This document shows positions 2,009 through 25,116 of a DNA stretch of 32,827 nt, piece by piece. A model generated the notes under the pieces. It was given only the letters and a program-made list of their open reading frames with translations. It made no database searches and was not told the origin of the DNA. The stretch comes from Candidatus Acidiferrales bacterium. GTDB lineage: Bacteria; Acidobacteriota; Terriglobia; Acidiferrales; UBA7541. Position numbers and translations under genes: made by a program. Each line of letters starts with the position of its first letter. Positions within the stretch are counted from its first letter, which is position 1. Location: assembly GCA_030037435.1 (NCBI GenBank), contig JASHRI010000220.1:1-32827 (forward strand), in the 5' to 3' direction.

Positions 2009-2121
2009 CTCTGGCCCAGTAGGGGTGAGGACTGGCCGAATCGCGGGAATAAACACAATTGCTTCTCACTGCCAAGCAACGGCAATCAAATCCTTCACGA
2101 GAGGCCGAAAAAGTGAAAGGC

Positions 2122-4215
2122 ATGAAACACCTGCAAGTTACTCTGATTATGGCCGCGGCAACCATCCTTGTACTCTTTATTGGCACGAGGCTGCCTAACC
2201 GTTCCGCTGCGGCCAAGGGGTTTGAACCGGGAAGCGTAAGCGTGGCTCGGGTGCTTGCCGACGAAAATTTGGGAACGAATTGGTTTCTATACGGTCGGGA
2301 CTTCGGCGAAACGCACTTTAGTCCCCTGAAACAAGTCACCGACAAGAATATACAGAAACTGGGCCTGGCCTGGTACTTGGACATCGACAGTCCAATGGGT
2401 ATGTCATCTGAGCCTGTGGAAGTGGACGGCGTAATTTACGTGACCAATTCGTTGGCCGTTGTTTATGCGGTGGACGCGGCCACCGGAAAAGTTTTGTGGA
2501 AGTTCGATCCGCACGAACAACGAGGGGTCAGCACTCAGAATTCCTACGCCGTCCGTGCGAATCGGGGCGTGGCGGTGTGGGAGGGCAAGGTATATGTCGC
2601 GACCGGCGATTGTCGCCTATTCGCCATTGATGCCGCTTCCGGAAAGCAAGTATGGGCGTCTCAAACCTGCGATCCGGTTCAAACCGGCAGCACCGGCGAG
2701 CCGCATATCGCGGGTGGAAACGTGCTGATCGGCTATAACGGTTCTGACGACATGATTCGAGGCTCGCTGGTAGCCTTTAATGCCCAGACCGGCAAAGAAT
2801 CGTGGCGCTTCTGGACGGTCCCTGGAGATCCAGCCAAAGGATTTGAAACTAAAGCTCTGGAAATGGCGGCTAAGACGTGGGTAGGCAAAAAAGCGTTTCC
2901 GGAGTGGTGGAGATTTGGCGGCGGCGATGTATGGGCCGCAATTACATGGGACAGGAAAGATAATCTTGTCATTTTTGGTACGGCCGGAGCTGGTTCTGTG
3001 GAAGGCACGACGCCACGAAACGACGCCCCGGATGGCGCGAAACTATTTTCCGGCTGTGTGATTGCGGTCAATGCGGACACCGGAAAATACGTGTGGCATT
3101 TCCAAACCAGTGGAGCGCACTTCCAGACCGAGAACTTCCACATCATCATCACCGATCTGATGCTGAACGGTGAGAAACGTCATGTCGCCATCACCGCACC
3201 GAGAAATGGCTTCATCTACGTCATCGACGCAGCAACGGGCCACCTGCTGGAAGCCAAACCATACGGCACAGTGCACTGGGCGACTTCGATAGACCTGCAA
3301 ACCGGCAGGCCCGTCGAAGTTACCGGTGGGACGAGAACGGAAGGTCGTGGCGGCGCGGGAAAAACGTGGTGGCCGATGAGCTATGACCCAATCACCGGCC
3401 TTGTGTACATTCCCGCGTACGACGCGCGCCCTCATCCAGAGTCTGGGCAGTCAGCGATGGAAGGGAAGCTCGCCGCATGGGATCCCATCAGCCAATCCGT
3501 ACGCTGGTTCGTTCCTCAGCAGATAGAAACAAATAGTGGAGTCCTCTCGACTGCGGGCAATTTGGTCTTTCAAGGCCAAGGCACGGGTGAATTCGATGCC
3601 TACGCCGCCGACACCGGACAAAAAGTATGGTCAATACAGACCGGCTCAGCCATTGATTCGGTGCCTGTGAGTTTCAGCATAAACGGCCAGCAATATGTCG
3701 TGGTTCCGGTGGGATGGGGATCGGATTCCAGGTTGTTCCTCCCCGCCAGCGCGATGGCAACTCCGCAATCCGAAAGAGGGCCTTCACGCCTTCTGGCGTT
3801 CAAGATCGGAGGGGCTCTGCCGTTTCCCACACCACCCGACACTATTCAGCCAATTCCTGAGCCTCCAAAACAGACTGCCAGCGAAGCTGTGATCAAACAG
3901 GGCGAAGGCCTGTACGAGCTTCATATGTGCGGAGGATGTCATTCTCCTGGGCTCGATGGGAGCGGTGCGTGGACTGTAAATGGCGCGGTACCGGATTTGC
4001 GATACGCGCCGCCGGAAGTTCACGACCAGTGGGATGCGATTGTCTTCGCGGGGAGCCACAAGGCTGAGGGAATGATGGCCTTCGGCGTGGACCAGCATTT
4101 TCCCGATTTGACTGCGTTAACCGTCGAGCAATTGCATGCAATTCATGCTTATGTCATCCAACAATCGTGGAAGGCCTACGAAGAGCAGCACAGGCCGAAA
4201 GCATCGGCAAAGTAG
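2122..4215 (+). CDS. PQQ-dependent (quinoprotein alcohol-type) dehydrogenase with C-terminal cytochrome c domain
   Basis: Signal-like N-terminus MKHLQVTLIMAAATILVLFIGTRL. Beta-propeller repeats (VYAVDAATGKVLWKFD, DRKDNLVIFGTAGAG). C-terminal heme c motif CGGCH (LYELHMCGGCHSPGLDGSG). The ORF track starts at TTG 2059; ATG 2122 (or GTG 2113) fits the signal peptide better. Confidence 0.88.
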   Translation: MKHLQVTLIMAAATILVLFIGTRLPNRSAAAKGFEPGSVSVARVLADENLGTNWFLYGRDFGETHFSPLKQVTDKNIQKLGLAWYLDIDSPMGMSSEPVEVDGVIYVTNSLAVVYAVDAATGKVLWKFDPHEQRGVSTQNSYAVRANRGVAVWEGKVYVATGDCRLFAIDAASGKQVWASQTCDPVQTGSTGEPHIAGGNVLIGYNGSDDMIRGSLVAFNAQTGKESWRFWTVPGDPAKGFETKALEMAAKTWVGKKAFPEWWRFGGGDVWAAITWDRKDNLVIFGTAGAGSVEGTTPRNDAPDGAKLFSGCVIAVNADTGKYVWHFQTSGAHFQTENFHIIITDLMLNGEKRHVAITAPRNGFIYVIDAATGHLLEAKPYGTVHWATSIDLQTGRPVEVTGGTRTEGRGGAGKTWWPMSYDPITGLVYIPAYDARPHPESGQSAMEGKLAAWDPISQSVRWFVPQQIETNSGVLSTAGNLVFQGQGTGEFDAYAADTGQKVWSIQTGSAIDSVPVSFSINGQQYVVVPVGWGSDSRLFLPASAMATPQSERGPSRLLAFKIGGALPFPTPPDTIQPIPEPPKQTASEAVIKQGEGLYELHMCGGCHSPGLDGSGAWTVNGAVPDLRYAPPEVHDQWDAIVFAGSHKAEGMMAFGVDQHFPDLTALTVEQLHAIHAYVIQQSWKAYEEQHRPKASAK

Positions 4216-18535: not shown

Positions 18536-18707
18536 TGCCCCATGGTCTAGTGGATGTAGCATGGGTGTCCGGCTGCAAGACCTAATGATCGCAATGAAAG
18601 AGATCCTCTCTAGCATTCGACCGCCTCATGGATTTTCAACTTCTTCCTTCCCCGCCTGCAGAATGAAAGCGGGTTTCCGATAATGGACGAAAAAAGGAGG
18701 TGTGCTC

Positions 18708-20384
18708 ATGGATCGACGAAAGATGCTGTCATTGCTTGGAATCAGTCCAGCGCTGGCGATGGCCGGTGCACCTTTGTACGCCAGCCACGGTAAAACGACG
18801 GCGACCGGAGACTCCGTGACATCGTTTGACACCAAGTGCGCAGTCCTAAGCCCGCTGGGGACACCGCCGCCGATCAAGTTGCTGGGAATGGCGCCGCGAC
18901 CGGAATCTCTCGATGGCAAGACGATCTTTTTCGTAGACGACGGTTTTCCCGGGACGGACGTCCTGATGAAGGAAATGGTGGAATGGTTTAACCAGAACGT
19001 CCACGGAGCTACTGCGCTCTACAGGCTCAAATCTGGCGGATTCCCGCAGGTTGATCAGCCGCTGTGGGCGGAGATCAAGGCCAAAGGAGATGCGGTGGTG
19101 ATGGGTGTCGGGCATTGAAGCTACTGCTCGCCGGCGGTCGTTGGCCACGATATTTTCTTTGAGTCCGAATTTCACAAGCCTACCGTCTCGATCATTACGC
19201 AGTACTTCCGGCAACTAGTTGAAGAAAACGCTGCGAAGAAAGGCATGCCGGAGCTGCCGTTTACCTTCGTCAAATCGCCCGTGTGGGGCAAGACGGCGGA
19301 TCAATTGCGGCACGACGTGATCGATGGCAGTGATCCGGTCACCGGGAAGCCCGTGATGCAGGAGATCGTAGACCAGCTGACGACCCCAGTTAGCGCTGAA
19401 GACCAGACCACGCGGACGATTTCGCAATCGGCCGGTCCCGGCACATTCGGACCCGATACCGCGGAAAGCCTGCAGCGCATGTTCATTGAAAAGAGGATGA
19501 CCGACTACCTGCCGATTGTTCTCCCCACCGAAGAACGGGTCGACGCGATGCTCAAAGGCACAAGCCGTAAGCCCGACGAGGTTGTCGGCCACATGTCACC
19601 CACGCCGGGCGTGTACGAAAACTGGTCCTACACCGTCCGGCAGATCGCCGTGAACGCGGTGATGGCGGGCGCGGACCCGAAATATCTGCCGGTGATTCTC
19701 GCGATCGCTTCGATCGGGAAGGAATCCATTTCCAGCTCCGACAACTCGTTCACCGAAGCCGTGGTAATTAATGGACCCATTCGCGACGAAATCGGCCTCA
19801 ATTATCGTATTGGCTCGCTCGGGCCCTTCGGCCACGCCAACGCGACGATCGGTCGCGCGTACACATTGCTTTCCATCAACGGCGGGAACTGCGGCAAGGT
19901 CGGCGAGACATACATGGGCGTAATCGGAAATCCCATGAACTACGCCAATATCATCATCGCCGAGAACGAAAAAGACTCGCCATGGGAACCGTTCAGTGTA
20001 CGGCGCGGATTCAAGCCGAATGAGAACGTTGTAAGCATATTCGAAGGTTGGGGCGTTATTTCAGCGAAAAACTCCAAACATGCCGTTTGGTCGAAAGACA
20101 TGAATTTCGCCCAGGAACTCAAGGACATCTCGAACGATCAGGACCAGCTTTTTGGAATCCTTGCGGTGCTCAGCCCAACGGTCGCCGATTATATGAAGAG
20201 CGAAGGCTACGACTCCGTCGAAAAATTGACGGATTTTATCTTCCAGAGCCAGGACGAGTCCACGCCACATTTCCGAAGCAAGGCGCAGATCAACATCCTG
20301 GTTACGGGATCGTCCAACAATCTTTATTGGGACTACGGCGGGATGCATTACGTCAAAAGCGCTTCGATCGACGAGTGGAGCTAA
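18708..20384 (+). CDS. Predicted selenoprotein, UGSC-family-like, U-S-Y-C motif (UGA 19116-19118 read as Sec, U137)
   Basis: The 18702 and 19245 ORFs share a frame (both start coordinates divisible by 3). Apart from TGA 19116-19118, the frame is open from 18708 to 20384. The bridge reads GDAVVMGVGH-U-SYCSPAVVGHDIFFESEFHKPTVSIITQYFRQLVEENAAKKGMPELPF. Strong SD AAGGAGG, 7 nt before ATG 18708. Confidence 0.85.
19128..19150 (+). promoter_or_regulatory. Candidate bacterial SECIS-like hairpin, gene 1
   Basis: UCG-CC-GGC-[GGUCGUUG]-GCC-A-CGA. The apical loop begins GGUC at +21 counting the U of UGA as +1. An alternative fold is UCGU-[UGGCC]-ACGA. Paired by eye only. Confidence 0.45.
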
Positions 20385-20498: not shown

Positions 20499-22289
20499 AT
20501 GGATCGACGCAAAATGTTAGCGTTATTAGGGCTCAGCCCAGTTCTTGCGGCGGTTTCGCCCACCTTTGCCCGCACTGCTGCAGCATTTCCGGAAGACGCG
20601 CCGGGAGCCTCGAGTTGCGACTCCGGTAATGGTGCGGTCAGTGTTCTGAATCCCGCGATCACCACAAAATTTGCCGAGCGGGTTCCTCTAGCACCGCGCC
20701 TTAGCACGCTCGACGGCAAGACGATCTATCTCGTGGACACGGATTGGGGAGGGATGCAGCAGAATAATGGCATCCTCGAGGAAATTCAGAAATGGTTTGC
20801 CCAGAACATGCCTGCCGTGAAAACGGTCATCAAGATCAAGGCTGGCAACTTCGTCACGGACGATCCGGGACTGTGGAAGGAGATTGCCCAAAATCACGGC
20901 GACGGCGTAATCATCGGTGTAGCCGGTTGACACGGTTGCGTCGGGGCCGTGAGCCGCGAATCTGGAGAAATCGAGCAGAAGTATCACATCCCAACAGTTT
21001 CTCTCGCTGGTTCGAATGTAGTCTCGTTTGGTCTCGGAGCGAACTTTAAGTACAACACCGGCATGCCACTTCGGTTCGTCGGCGTTCCGTTTCCGTTCTC
21101 TGGCCAGCCGCGCTCAGTGCTCGCATCGTACGTTCAGGGCAAAGACACCGTCAGCGGACAGCCGTTTATGCAGGCCATTATCGACGGGCTCACGAAGCCA
21201 CTGACAGCTGATGAAAAACTCTCCGGGTCTGCGCCCGACGCACCATCGGCTGAGCCGCGAATGCTTCCGGCGGATACGCAAGACAATCTACAGCGCATTT
21301 TCCGTGACCGTGGCTGGACGGACTACAACCCGGTCATCCTTCCGACGCCAGAACGAGTCGCCGCGATACTGAAGGGCACCAGTCATGCGCCTGATGAGGT
21401 TGTGAAAAGTGCCGCAGGAACTTTTGGTTCGCGCCGCCCATTTACGGTCGAGAAAGTCGCCACGATTGCCGTTATGGCAGGCGCAAGGCCGGAATATTTG
21501 CCGGTGATCCTGGCGCTCGCCAGCCGAGTGCCGTATGAGGACTCGACTACCTCGATAGCGCAGATGGTGGTGGTCAATGGCCCGATACGCAAGAAGATGG
21601 GTATGAACTCCGGCATGGGATCACTGGGGCCGGACAATGAGGCGAACTCTGTCATCGGTCGGTCGATGACGCTGATCCACAAAGTCATTCAGGGCTACGT
21701 CGAAGGCGTAACTGGTTTCGCTTCGCTCAGCAACCCTCTCAGGTACGACAATCTCTGTTTCGCGGAAAACGAGGAAGCTTTGCCGGAAGGCTGGCAGCCT
21801 CTACACGTTCAGTCGGGCCACAAGCCAACCGACAGCGTGGTGACCATTTTTACTGGCTGGAATTTCATCAATAGCACGGGATGGGTGGAGCAGCACTACG
21901 CGCCTCAATTCTTGATGCGCGACTATATGTCTTCGCTTTCCGGCATGGGCGCCACCCTGATCATGGACCCGTCAGTCGCGGAACTGCTCAGTGCTGCACA
22001 GGGATTCAATTCCAAGGCGGCGCTTGGCCAATGGTTGTCGCAGAACGTTCAGAAGACTGCGCAGTCGTATTGGGGGAATTCGATCGTCTCAAGCATGCTG
22101 GCCCCGCTCGCGCGGCAAGGGCTGAAACCGTACGCGGATTGGCTAGATATTTCTGGAGATTCGCTGATTAAGCCCTTCGCCAATCCGAATGGCATCCACG
22201 CGGTCGTTACTGGCGGAAAGACTGCGAGCGTTTGGTTCGCTACGGACTTTATGCCCGATCGAGGAACGTCGATCGACGAGTGGACCTGA
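20499..22289 (+). CDS. Predicted selenoprotein, tandem paralog, UGSC-family-like, U-H-G-C motif (UGA 20928-20930 read as Sec, U144)
   Basis: The 20391 and 20949 ORFs share a frame and are separated only by TGA 20928-20930. The bridge reads GDGVIIGVAG-U-HGCVGAVSRESGEIEQKYHIPTVSLAG. SD GGGAGG precedes ATG 20499 (MDRRKMLALLGLSP), paralogous to the start of the upstream gene. Confidence 0.85.
20939..20958 (+). promoter_or_regulatory. Candidate bacterial SECIS-like hairpin, gene 2
   Basis: CG-[bulged U]-CGG-[GGCCGUGAG]-CCG-CG. The apical loop begins GG at +18 counting the U of UGA as +1. A bulged U below a short apical stem resembles the E. coli fdhF SECIS layout. Paired by eye only. Confidence 0.45.
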
Positions 22290-23043: not shown

Positions 23044-25116
23044 ATGTACCGAGAGGAAGCGCGAACCATGCGTGAACTTCAGCGGAATTCACCTGCGAGC
23101 CGAATTTTAATTCTCGCAATTCTGGCAATCTTGTGGATTGCGCTCAACGCGCACGTGGCGCGGGCGCAGTGGCTCACCGTCAATGGCGAGAACAATCAAA
23201 GGTATTCCCCGCTCAGCGAGATCAATACTCACAACGTGACGCAGATCGGCGCGGCATGGGTGGCGCCTGGAATCGAACCAATGCCTTCCAGCCGCGCCAC
23301 GCCCGTAGTCGACGATGGCCTGATGTTCATTACCGCGCCACCGTACGTCTACGCAGTCGACATGAACTCGGGAAAGATTACCTGGCGCTATAAAACGGAT
23401 GGCCCCACAGCGCACGGTGGTGTGGCGGTCGGCGACGGCATGGTCTTCGTCGGTGTTTGGAATCCCGGAAAAACAAGTCTCATCGCACTAAATGAAAAGA
23501 CTGGCGAGCCCGCGTGGCAAACTTCTCTAATGCCAAAGTCGGGTGAACCGACTGGCGGCGCTTCCGCTGCGCCTCTGTTTGCCGATGGAATCGTCTCCAT
23601 CGGCACGAACGCCGATTACGGCTATCGCGGCCAGATCGTCGCATTCGACGCGAAAACTGGAAAGGAAGCGTGGCGGTTTTATGTTGTGCCTTCGCCAGGC
23701 CAACGGGGCTCCGACACATGGCCCAAAAACAATACGGCGTGGCTGCACGGCGGCGGCGCGGTGTGGCTGGAGGGAATCTACGATCCTGTGCTCGGTCTCG
23801 ACTTCTACGCCACCGGAAACGCCGTACCTCAATATGGGGGCGAGTACCGGCCCGGCGACAATTTGTACACCGATTGCCTCGTAGCCCTCGACAACAGGAC
23901 CGGCCAGCTGCGCTGGTACTACCAAGTCGTTCATCACGACATTTGGGAGGCGGATATCGCCGAAGCGCCAGTGCTGTTCGATGCAGACCTGAATGGCCAG
24001 CAGGTAAAGGCGATCGCAGCCATGCGCACAGACGGGTACCTTTTCACTTTCGACCGCACGAACGGAAAACCGCTCGAGCGTATTGAGGAACGTCCTGTCC
24101 CGCAGGACGCGTCGCAAAAGACGGCGCGCACGCAGCCGTATCCGGTGGGCGCCCAACCCGTGTTGCCCGATTGCGATTACTGGCGAACTCAGCCTGTCCC
24201 CACCGGCTTCCAAATAGGCTGTTTCTTCACGCCAGCTGATGTCCACAAGCCAGACTTGCTTGTGCCTACTTACGGCATGCGCTCCACACCAATGGCCTAT
24301 GATCCACAGACCCGCTTTTTTTACGCCACCGGAAATGCCGCGTTGCAGTGGTTCCGGCGCACCGCCGACCCGGACTTTTTTACCCTTGGTTTCAGCAGTC
24401 ACGTACCGGGCCTAAACAAATTGAGCTACGGTGTGCTAGCGGCCATCGACAGCGGGACAGACAAAATCGCGTGGGAGAAAAAATTCCCAGACGGAAAACC
24501 GAGCGGCGCACTCGCTACAGCGGGCGGACTCGTATTTCAAAACAAAGGCGACGGCAATTTCCAAGCCTTTGACGCGAAAACAGGCGATCTTCTCTGGCAG
24601 TTTCAAACGGGCTCGCCCGTGGGCGGTCCACCAATCGCGTTTGAAAACCAGGGCCACGAATACATCGTCACCGTTGTGGGTGGCGCGGTGTGGGCGTTCC
24701 AGCTCGGCGGAACAGTCCCGCAACGCTCCGCGCCGCCGATGCCACCGGAAGAAGATTTTTCGGGGACTATCACCAACACCGACACGGTCCTAACGGCCAC
24801 GGCTGTGCACGACATGGGCCTCACAGGCCAGCACGTCATTGAGGATGAATACGAGTTCGATCCTTATCGCGCGCGAGTTGTCGTTGGCACTCGCGTGATG
24901 TGGCGAAATAATGGCGTGCTCGACCACACCATCGTCGCCGTCGATGGGTCTTGGACCACCGGCACGCTGCACCCGCTCGACATCGGCCAGCACATCTTCG
25001 ATAAGCCCGGAAAGTACGAGTATCATTGCAAAGAATTTCCCTGGGAGTACGGAGAAATCGTGGTCGTGCCCGCTCCTGGCGGAGAGCAACAGTCCCAGCT
25101 GAGTGGCCAGAACTAA
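23044..25116 (+). CDS. PQQ-dependent dehydrogenase with C-terminal cupredoxin-like domain
   Basis: AQWLTVNGENNQRYSPLSEINTHNVTQIGAAWV, propeller repeats (VYAVDMNSGKITWRYKTD, QAFDAKTGDLLWQFQTGSPVGGPPIAFENQGHEYIVTVVGGAVWAF), then a cupredoxin-like end (YEFDPYRARVVVGTRVMWRNNGVLDHTIVAVDG...GKYEYHCKEFPWEYGEIVV). Confidence 0.88.
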   Translation: MYREEARTMRELQRNSPASRILILAILAILWIALNAHVARAQWLTVNGENNQRYSPLSEINTHNVTQIGAAWVAPGIEPMPSSRATPVVDDGLMFITAPPYVYAVDMNSGKITWRYKTDGPTAHGGVAVGDGMVFVGVWNPGKTSLIALNEKTGEPAWQTSLMPKSGEPTGGASAAPLFADGIVSIGTNADYGYRGQIVAFDAKTGKEAWRFYVVPSPGQRGSDTWPKNNTAWLHGGGAVWLEGIYDPVLGLDFYATGNAVPQYGGEYRPGDNLYTDCLVALDNRTGQLRWYYQVVHHDIWEADIAEAPVLFDADLNGQQVKAIAAMRTDGYLFTFDRTNGKPLERIEERPVPQDASQKTARTQPYPVGAQPVLPDCDYWRTQPVPTGFQIGCFFTPADVHKPDLLVPTYGMRSTPMAYDPQTRFFYATGNAALQWFRRTADPDFFTLGFSSHVPGLNKLSYGVLAAIDSGTDKIAWEKKFPDGKPSGALATAGGLVFQNKGDGNFQAFDAKTGDLLWQFQTGSPVGGPPIAFENQGHEYIVTVVGGAVWAFQLGGTVPQRSAPPMPPEEDFSGTITNTDTVLTATAVHDMGLTGQHVIEDEYEFDPYRARVVVGTRVMWRNNGVLDHTIVAVDGSWTTGTLHPLDIGQHIFDKPGKYEYHCKEFPWEYGEIVVVPAPGGEQQSQLSGQN

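Follow-up and report, generated by a model that had tools for sequence, protein, structure and literature searches.

The described selenoproteins closest to the gene analysed here are those of the UGSC family (PF24696, NF041046), for which the GOS survey of 2008 reported a fusion with a domain named 'Unknown_1' and guessed, from a likely thioredoxin-like fold, a thiol/disulfide or peroxide-type role (PMC2398784). The U-x-x-C motif (U being selenocysteine, Sec) is also common to the selenoproteins B of glycine, sarcosine and betaine reductase (GrdB, GrdF and GrdH), to PrdB of D-proline reductase and to the thioredoxin-like UxxC selenoproteins. GrdB, with the longer motif UxxCxxC, takes part in binding the substrate and releasing ammonia (PMC13188914), and a GrdB-like operon has been linked with cleavage of the C-F bond of fluoroacetate (PMC10838667). 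Within the window, that is, the whole stretch of 32,827 nt that was analysed, gene 1 (Table 1) has in common with the UGSC selenoproteins (PMC2398784) the domain, a Sec within U-x-x-C and a SECIS element after the UGA, but departs from them in its U-S-Y-C motif, a fused domain of ~350 aa, a leader and many paralogues. We put at about 85% the probability that the UGA of gene 1 is decoded as Sec and that its UGSC-family and domain assignments are right; judged from the sequence, Sec decoding at U137 appears in itself close to certain.

The frame of gene 1, from 18708 to 20384, is interrupted once, by the TGA at 19116-19118 within the motif V-M-G-V-G-H-U-S-Y-C, and ends at 20382-20384 in a stop other than TGA. 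This confirms the preliminary description of the locus, which had reported an in-frame TGA followed by a frame open through 20384. It had also held that gene callers would see two truncated ORFs hiding a selenoprotein of 558 aa, and the ORF listing under table 11 does give both, 18702-19118 and 19245-20384. The GTG at 18702 is the mechanical ORF start, the best start being the ATG at 18708, preceded by a Shine-Dalgarno sequence. The joined protein matches the Pfam UGSC model PF24696 with 81.3 bits (1.2e-22, gathering cut-off 25) across the TGA, over residues 48-206 when numbered from 18702. Each half alone also matches it, in order: residues 48-138 align with model positions 2-92, and the part after the TGA with positions 113-159. 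On the NCBIfam equivalog model UGSC_fam (NF041046), by contrast, gene 1 scores 52.6 bits, under the curated cut-off of 125. The UGSC resemblance claimed earlier therefore stands, by these profile scores, for the superfamily that gene 1 shares with NF041046, but not for equivalog status nor for the literal motif.

Table 1. Features of gene 1 and its surroundings, in window coordinates.
Feature	Position	Strand	Remark
Shine-Dalgarno AGGAGG	18695..18700	+	7 nt ahead of ATG 18708 (sequence)
Selenoprotein gene 1	18708..20384	+	558 aa with UGA read as Sec (U137)
N-terminal leader MDRRKMLSLLGISPALAMAGAPLYASHG, putative Tat-like export signal	18708..18791	+	RR in homologues; low-confidence model region
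UGSC domain PF24696, residues 46-204	18843..19319	+	Rossmann-like in model
Sec UGA codon (U137)	19116..19118	+	U or Cys only at this column in the genus
Partner Cys140 codon of U-x-x-C	19125..19127	+	Invariant in 38-member alignment
SECIS hairpin, gene 1	19130..19145	+	GCCGGC-GGUC-GUUGGC; fits published bSECIS rules
C-terminal domain (~347 aa)	19341..20381	+	Without Pfam or NCBIfam family
Paralogous selenoprotein gene 2 (596 aa)	20499..22289	+	Starts MDRRKMLALLG; TGA stop
Sec UGA of gene 2, motif U-H-G-C	20928..20930	+
SECIS-like hairpin core, gene 2	20948..20958	+	Loop AGC, 21 nt past UGA, -7.6 kcal/mol
PQQ-dependent dehydrogenase (PF01011)	23044..25116	+	Recurrent neighbour of the family

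Public matches to gene 1 come from Candidatus Acidiferrales and further Acidobacteriota MAGs. In the family tree, gene 1 belongs to a clade with the motif USYC that comprises 5 members from 5 species (support 1.0), all with the TGA. Downstream of it, dN/dS amounts to 0.065 and 0.068 against the orthologues L124 and L110 (pairs taken from the window, L124 and L110; L137 was left out because its frame holds two family genes). We thus consider a chance read-through frame excluded, because both flanks of the TGA match one Pfam model in order, the orthologues share the TGA and dN/dS is low. A sequencing or assembly error, the possible flaw named in the preliminary description, is likewise excluded because independent species carry the identical TGA.

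About 110 loci, nearly all from the source genus, were examined. The UGSC family is present in 13 of the 20 genomes of this genus, including the source genome, with 1-18 hits each, nearly all of which carry exactly one TGA; with 14 hits in the source genome, gene 1 is one of about 14 related copies, a multiplicity that goes beyond the earlier account. At the Sec column, the rows that cover it show U in 142 cases, Cys in 4 and no other residue, a count from which 16 further rows, fragments lying outside the column, were excluded; the rows include four loci taken twice, without which there are 136 sequences. All four Cys codons are TGC. The middle residues of UxxC vary (the motif continues after U as STC, GSC, GGC, DGC, HGC, PGC, SYC, EAC, NGC and others), and the literal tetrapeptide U-G-S-C occurs in 19 of the 136 sequences, gene 1 not being among them. 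The second Cys is missing in a single Cys form (CSTY), and the UxxC redox motif proposed earlier, with its Cys three residues after the Sec, is borne out by U137 and C140, the latter invariant in an alignment of 38 members. According to the tree, the Cys genes are nested within Sec clades and imply at least three separate changes from Sec to Cys.

The synonymous sites around the UGA carry a signal at the RNA level. From codon -1 to codon +12, synonymous sites are nearly fixed among 76 Sec genes of the GH-U subfamilies, reading CAT-UGA-AGC ... CCA GCG ACC GTC GGT CAC TGC ATA, and the three 8-codon windows of strongest synonymous constraint in the whole gene start at +5, -1 and +4. Local folding energy is by itself a modest signal (mean z -0.53), with a weak sliding-window minimum at +12. 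RNAalifold, applied to 128 distinct sequences of all subfamilies, yielded no single consensus hairpin but consensus within subfamilies only, because the hairpin differs among them; each sequence was therefore scored singly, with controls, against published rules for bacterial SECIS elements (bSECIS; PMC13188914). Hairpins conforming to these rules were found in 114 of 131 Sec genes (17 fall outside them) against 82 of 262 in-gene control positions (31%), in 184 of 405 synonymous shuffles and in none of the 4 Cys genes. That of gene 1 (loop GGUC, stem 6, loop 17 nt past the UGA, -9.2 kcal/mol) fits the published bacterial model, which answers the SECIS check suggested in the preliminary description. 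An Rfam search of the whole window gave no match.

These data bear on the alternative that translation really ends at the TGA and that the sequence after it is a gene of its own or a pseudogene in decay. Standard ORF calling, with its two products, would favour it, but the TGA divides one Pfam domain and is common to orthologues of five species, dN/dS beyond it is ~0.07, Cys is its sole alternative in the genus, the synonymous sites around it are frozen and a hairpin of SECIS type goes with it, so that we regard a true stop as extremely improbable.

The source genome is a 4.25 Mb draft of 562 contigs, 87% complete and with 4.5% contamination. It codes for selA (576 bits), selB (370) and selD (366), all above their cut-offs. 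Searches for the tRNA-Sec gene (selC) found none in this draft, nor any in two further incomplete drafts with the family (G003 and G006), but the gene is present, with anticodon UCA, in 17 of the 20 genomes of the genus. Matches to RF01852 over the cut-off in the source genome proved to be tRNA-Leu and tRNA-Ser, hence not tRNA-Sec. The search for sel genes that had been recommended earlier was accordingly successful for the three protein genes in the source genome and for tRNA-Sec in the genus, but not for tRNA-Sec in the source draft itself. This missing tRNA is what might speak for the TGA being read as another amino acid, whether by an altered genetic code, by a suppressor tRNA or by readthrough. 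We consider this very improbable, given that wherever the genus has a residue other than Sec it is Cys with the codon TGC, that selA, selB and selD are present with tRNA-Sec in 17 genus genomes, and that TGA is the stop codon of other genes, among them gene 2, which also has a Sec UGA, so that TGA serves as Sec and as normal stop within one gene. Most of the 7 genus genomes without a UGSC hit retain selA and tRNA-Sec, and Sec use is therefore not tied to the UGSC family alone. Since G002, G004, G015, G019 and other genomes of the genus keep selA and tRNA-Sec with no UGSC gene found, other selenoproteins probably exist in them.

The gene 1 protein begins with a leader that we take to be twin-arginine (Tat)-like on account of its RR; an RR occurs within the first 20 residues of 88 out of 106 homologues, NRRKLLSLLG being typical. 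The protein is thus probably exported and would work outside the cytoplasm. In an AlphaFold2 model built on the alignment of 38 members (pLDDT 86), residues 11-40 are mostly of low confidence, and the UxxC sits between a strand (129-135) and a helix (140-154). We read the UGSC domain of this model as Rossmann-like, with the UxxC after the third parallel strand. U137, C140 and E152 are invariant in the same alignment, and the invariant residues of the C-terminal domain include D266, N378, R383, E419 and W426. This larger domain, whose presence had been pointed out before, could be delimited (Table 1). Neither Pfam nor NCBIfam holds a family for it, the family profile matched no PDB sequence, and Foldseek returned no usable match for the full model or for the C-terminal domain alone (for the latter, TM by query length was at most 0.22 among rows with E <0.01) and none against viral models. 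Fumarate hydratase, which occupied the top Foldseek rows, was dropped as a fold match at a TM of about 0.2.

Elsewhere, the C-terminal domain is a separate gene, a further point beyond the preliminary description: in about 12 loci of other Acidobacteriota, a UGSC gene and a C-terminal-domain gene are neighbours. In L161 and L186, the separate C-terminal-domain gene is fused to a Redoxin/ResA-like (thioredoxin) domain and lies beside a stand-alone UGSC selenoprotein gene, a fusion that suggests thioredoxin-type reduction. Some fused members (L180:1848-3620, ending in -CSDGLCGIPS, and L171:3881-5641) end in a Cys-x-x-x-Cys tail, which could be a redox relay.

A PQQ-dependent dehydrogenase lies downstream of gene 2, and a second one is encoded in the window at 2059-4215. 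Such genes are close to 35 of ~105 family loci (from 12 genomes, the loci not being independent), where we estimate that chance alone would place one near a few; the 4.2 Mb source genome contains roughly 30 of them. Cytochrome c, LysR, a GCV_T-type protein and an ammonium transporter recur less frequently. Family genes are also adjacent to each other in loci of other species (L124, L137, L110).

Across the phylum, 41 of 396 Acidobacteriota genomes have a UGSC hit. The family also abounds in a second genus, g74, whose genomes (G171, G331 and eight more) each have 10-28 hits to the UGSC domain; most of these are long genes of two domains that contain an in-frame TGA. L238 (G307:C14) and L239 (G171:C289), from two species, combine a UGSC domain with two adjacent in-frame TGA codons (GG-U-U-GC), a possible tandem selenocysteine. 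In the divergent g74 paralogues L240-L248 and L250, the Sec column holds Ser, Thr or some other residue and UxxC is mostly gone; possibly they are repurposed copies. The restriction to Sec or Cys that the preliminary description had proposed to verify is hence found throughout the genus (142 U, 4 Cys) but not in some g74 paralogues, which have lost the motif. Because these paralogues lack both Sec and Cys, not every copy of the family is, by its sequence, a selenoenzyme. We found no literature report of the paralogue expansion, which is not proof since most subscription journals were outside the scope of the search. The UGSC family was already known and gene 1 is a variant form of it; the expansion looks new.

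As to function, the stand-alone UGSC relatives resemble GrdB in having U-x-x-C-x-x-C (UGSCxxC in the phylum), and they match the GrdB model TIGR01917 in the Sec-site region down to 4.1e-5; 17 of the 38 fused members match this model weakly. No match to the full-length GrdB profile (Pfam GRDB, PF07355) was obtained, and those to TIGR01917 are weak and local. The similarity to GrdB is weak, limited to a single segment and driven in part by the UxxC itself. In contrast to GrdB, the Sec-bearing part of the gene 1 protein alone matches, its partner domain has no Pfam kin, and it is probably exported. With the thioredoxin-like UxxC selenoproteins it has in common the UxxC and a probable thioredoxin-linked reduction, but it differs from them in its predicted Rossmann-like fold and in that the fused proteins gave no match to a Trx profile.

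In our best reading, strongly supported as far as the Sec decoding goes, SelB, directed by the hairpin after the UGA, inserts Sec at residue 137. The resulting U-x-x-C site opens a helix of the Rossmann-like domain, which is related to the Sec-bearing end of GrdB. How the gene 1 protein is exported, reduced by a partner and used in a reaction is inferred. With its putative Tat-type leader, the protein would act outside the cytoplasm, close to PQQ dehydrogenases. Its selenolate might attack a small electrophile, bound with the help of the C-terminal domain, and reductively cleave a carbon-heteroatom bond of this substrate, after which Cys140 would make a Se-S bond, to be reduced by a thioredoxin-like partner. 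Such reductive cleavage of small molecules by a GrdB-like selenolate is our leading guess, although a tentative one at somewhat less than even odds. Alternatively, the Sec may be real and the protein a redox protein of general function, of the thiol/disulfide or peroxide type, instead of a small-molecule reductase, a reading that we find plausible, if on the doubtful side. UxxC is indeed a common redox motif, and related gene pairs show the C-terminal domain joined to a thioredoxin-like one; yet the order of the modelled fold appears Rossmann-like instead of that of thioredoxin, matches to the GrdB/PrdB families are weak but repeated, and 9-28 diversified paralogues beside catabolic genes fit many substrates better than one housekeeping role.

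The largest bacterial selenoproteomes in the literature consulted comprise 39-46 genes (PMC12013277), and here one family alone contributes up to 28 UGSC-domain genes per genome, most of them with an in-frame TGA. Because gene callers split each gene in two, annotation would go wrong for most of an enzyme family that numbers 9-28 members per genome in a phylum common in soil. The family set also offers a natural experiment in which the change from Sec to Cys is accompanied by the loss of the hairpin, and the fused or adjacent domain pair constitutes a defined system whose reaction is open to testing. More speculatively, two genera of Acidobacteriota might use exported, many-copy selenoenzymes of two domains which, alongside PQQ dehydrogenases, act on small organic compounds by reductive cleavage outside the cytoplasm. 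We hold this broader scenario to be rather unlikely as it stands; if true, GrdB-type chemistry would gain a new branch, and the expansion would rank among the largest of any single selenoprotein family in a bacterium.
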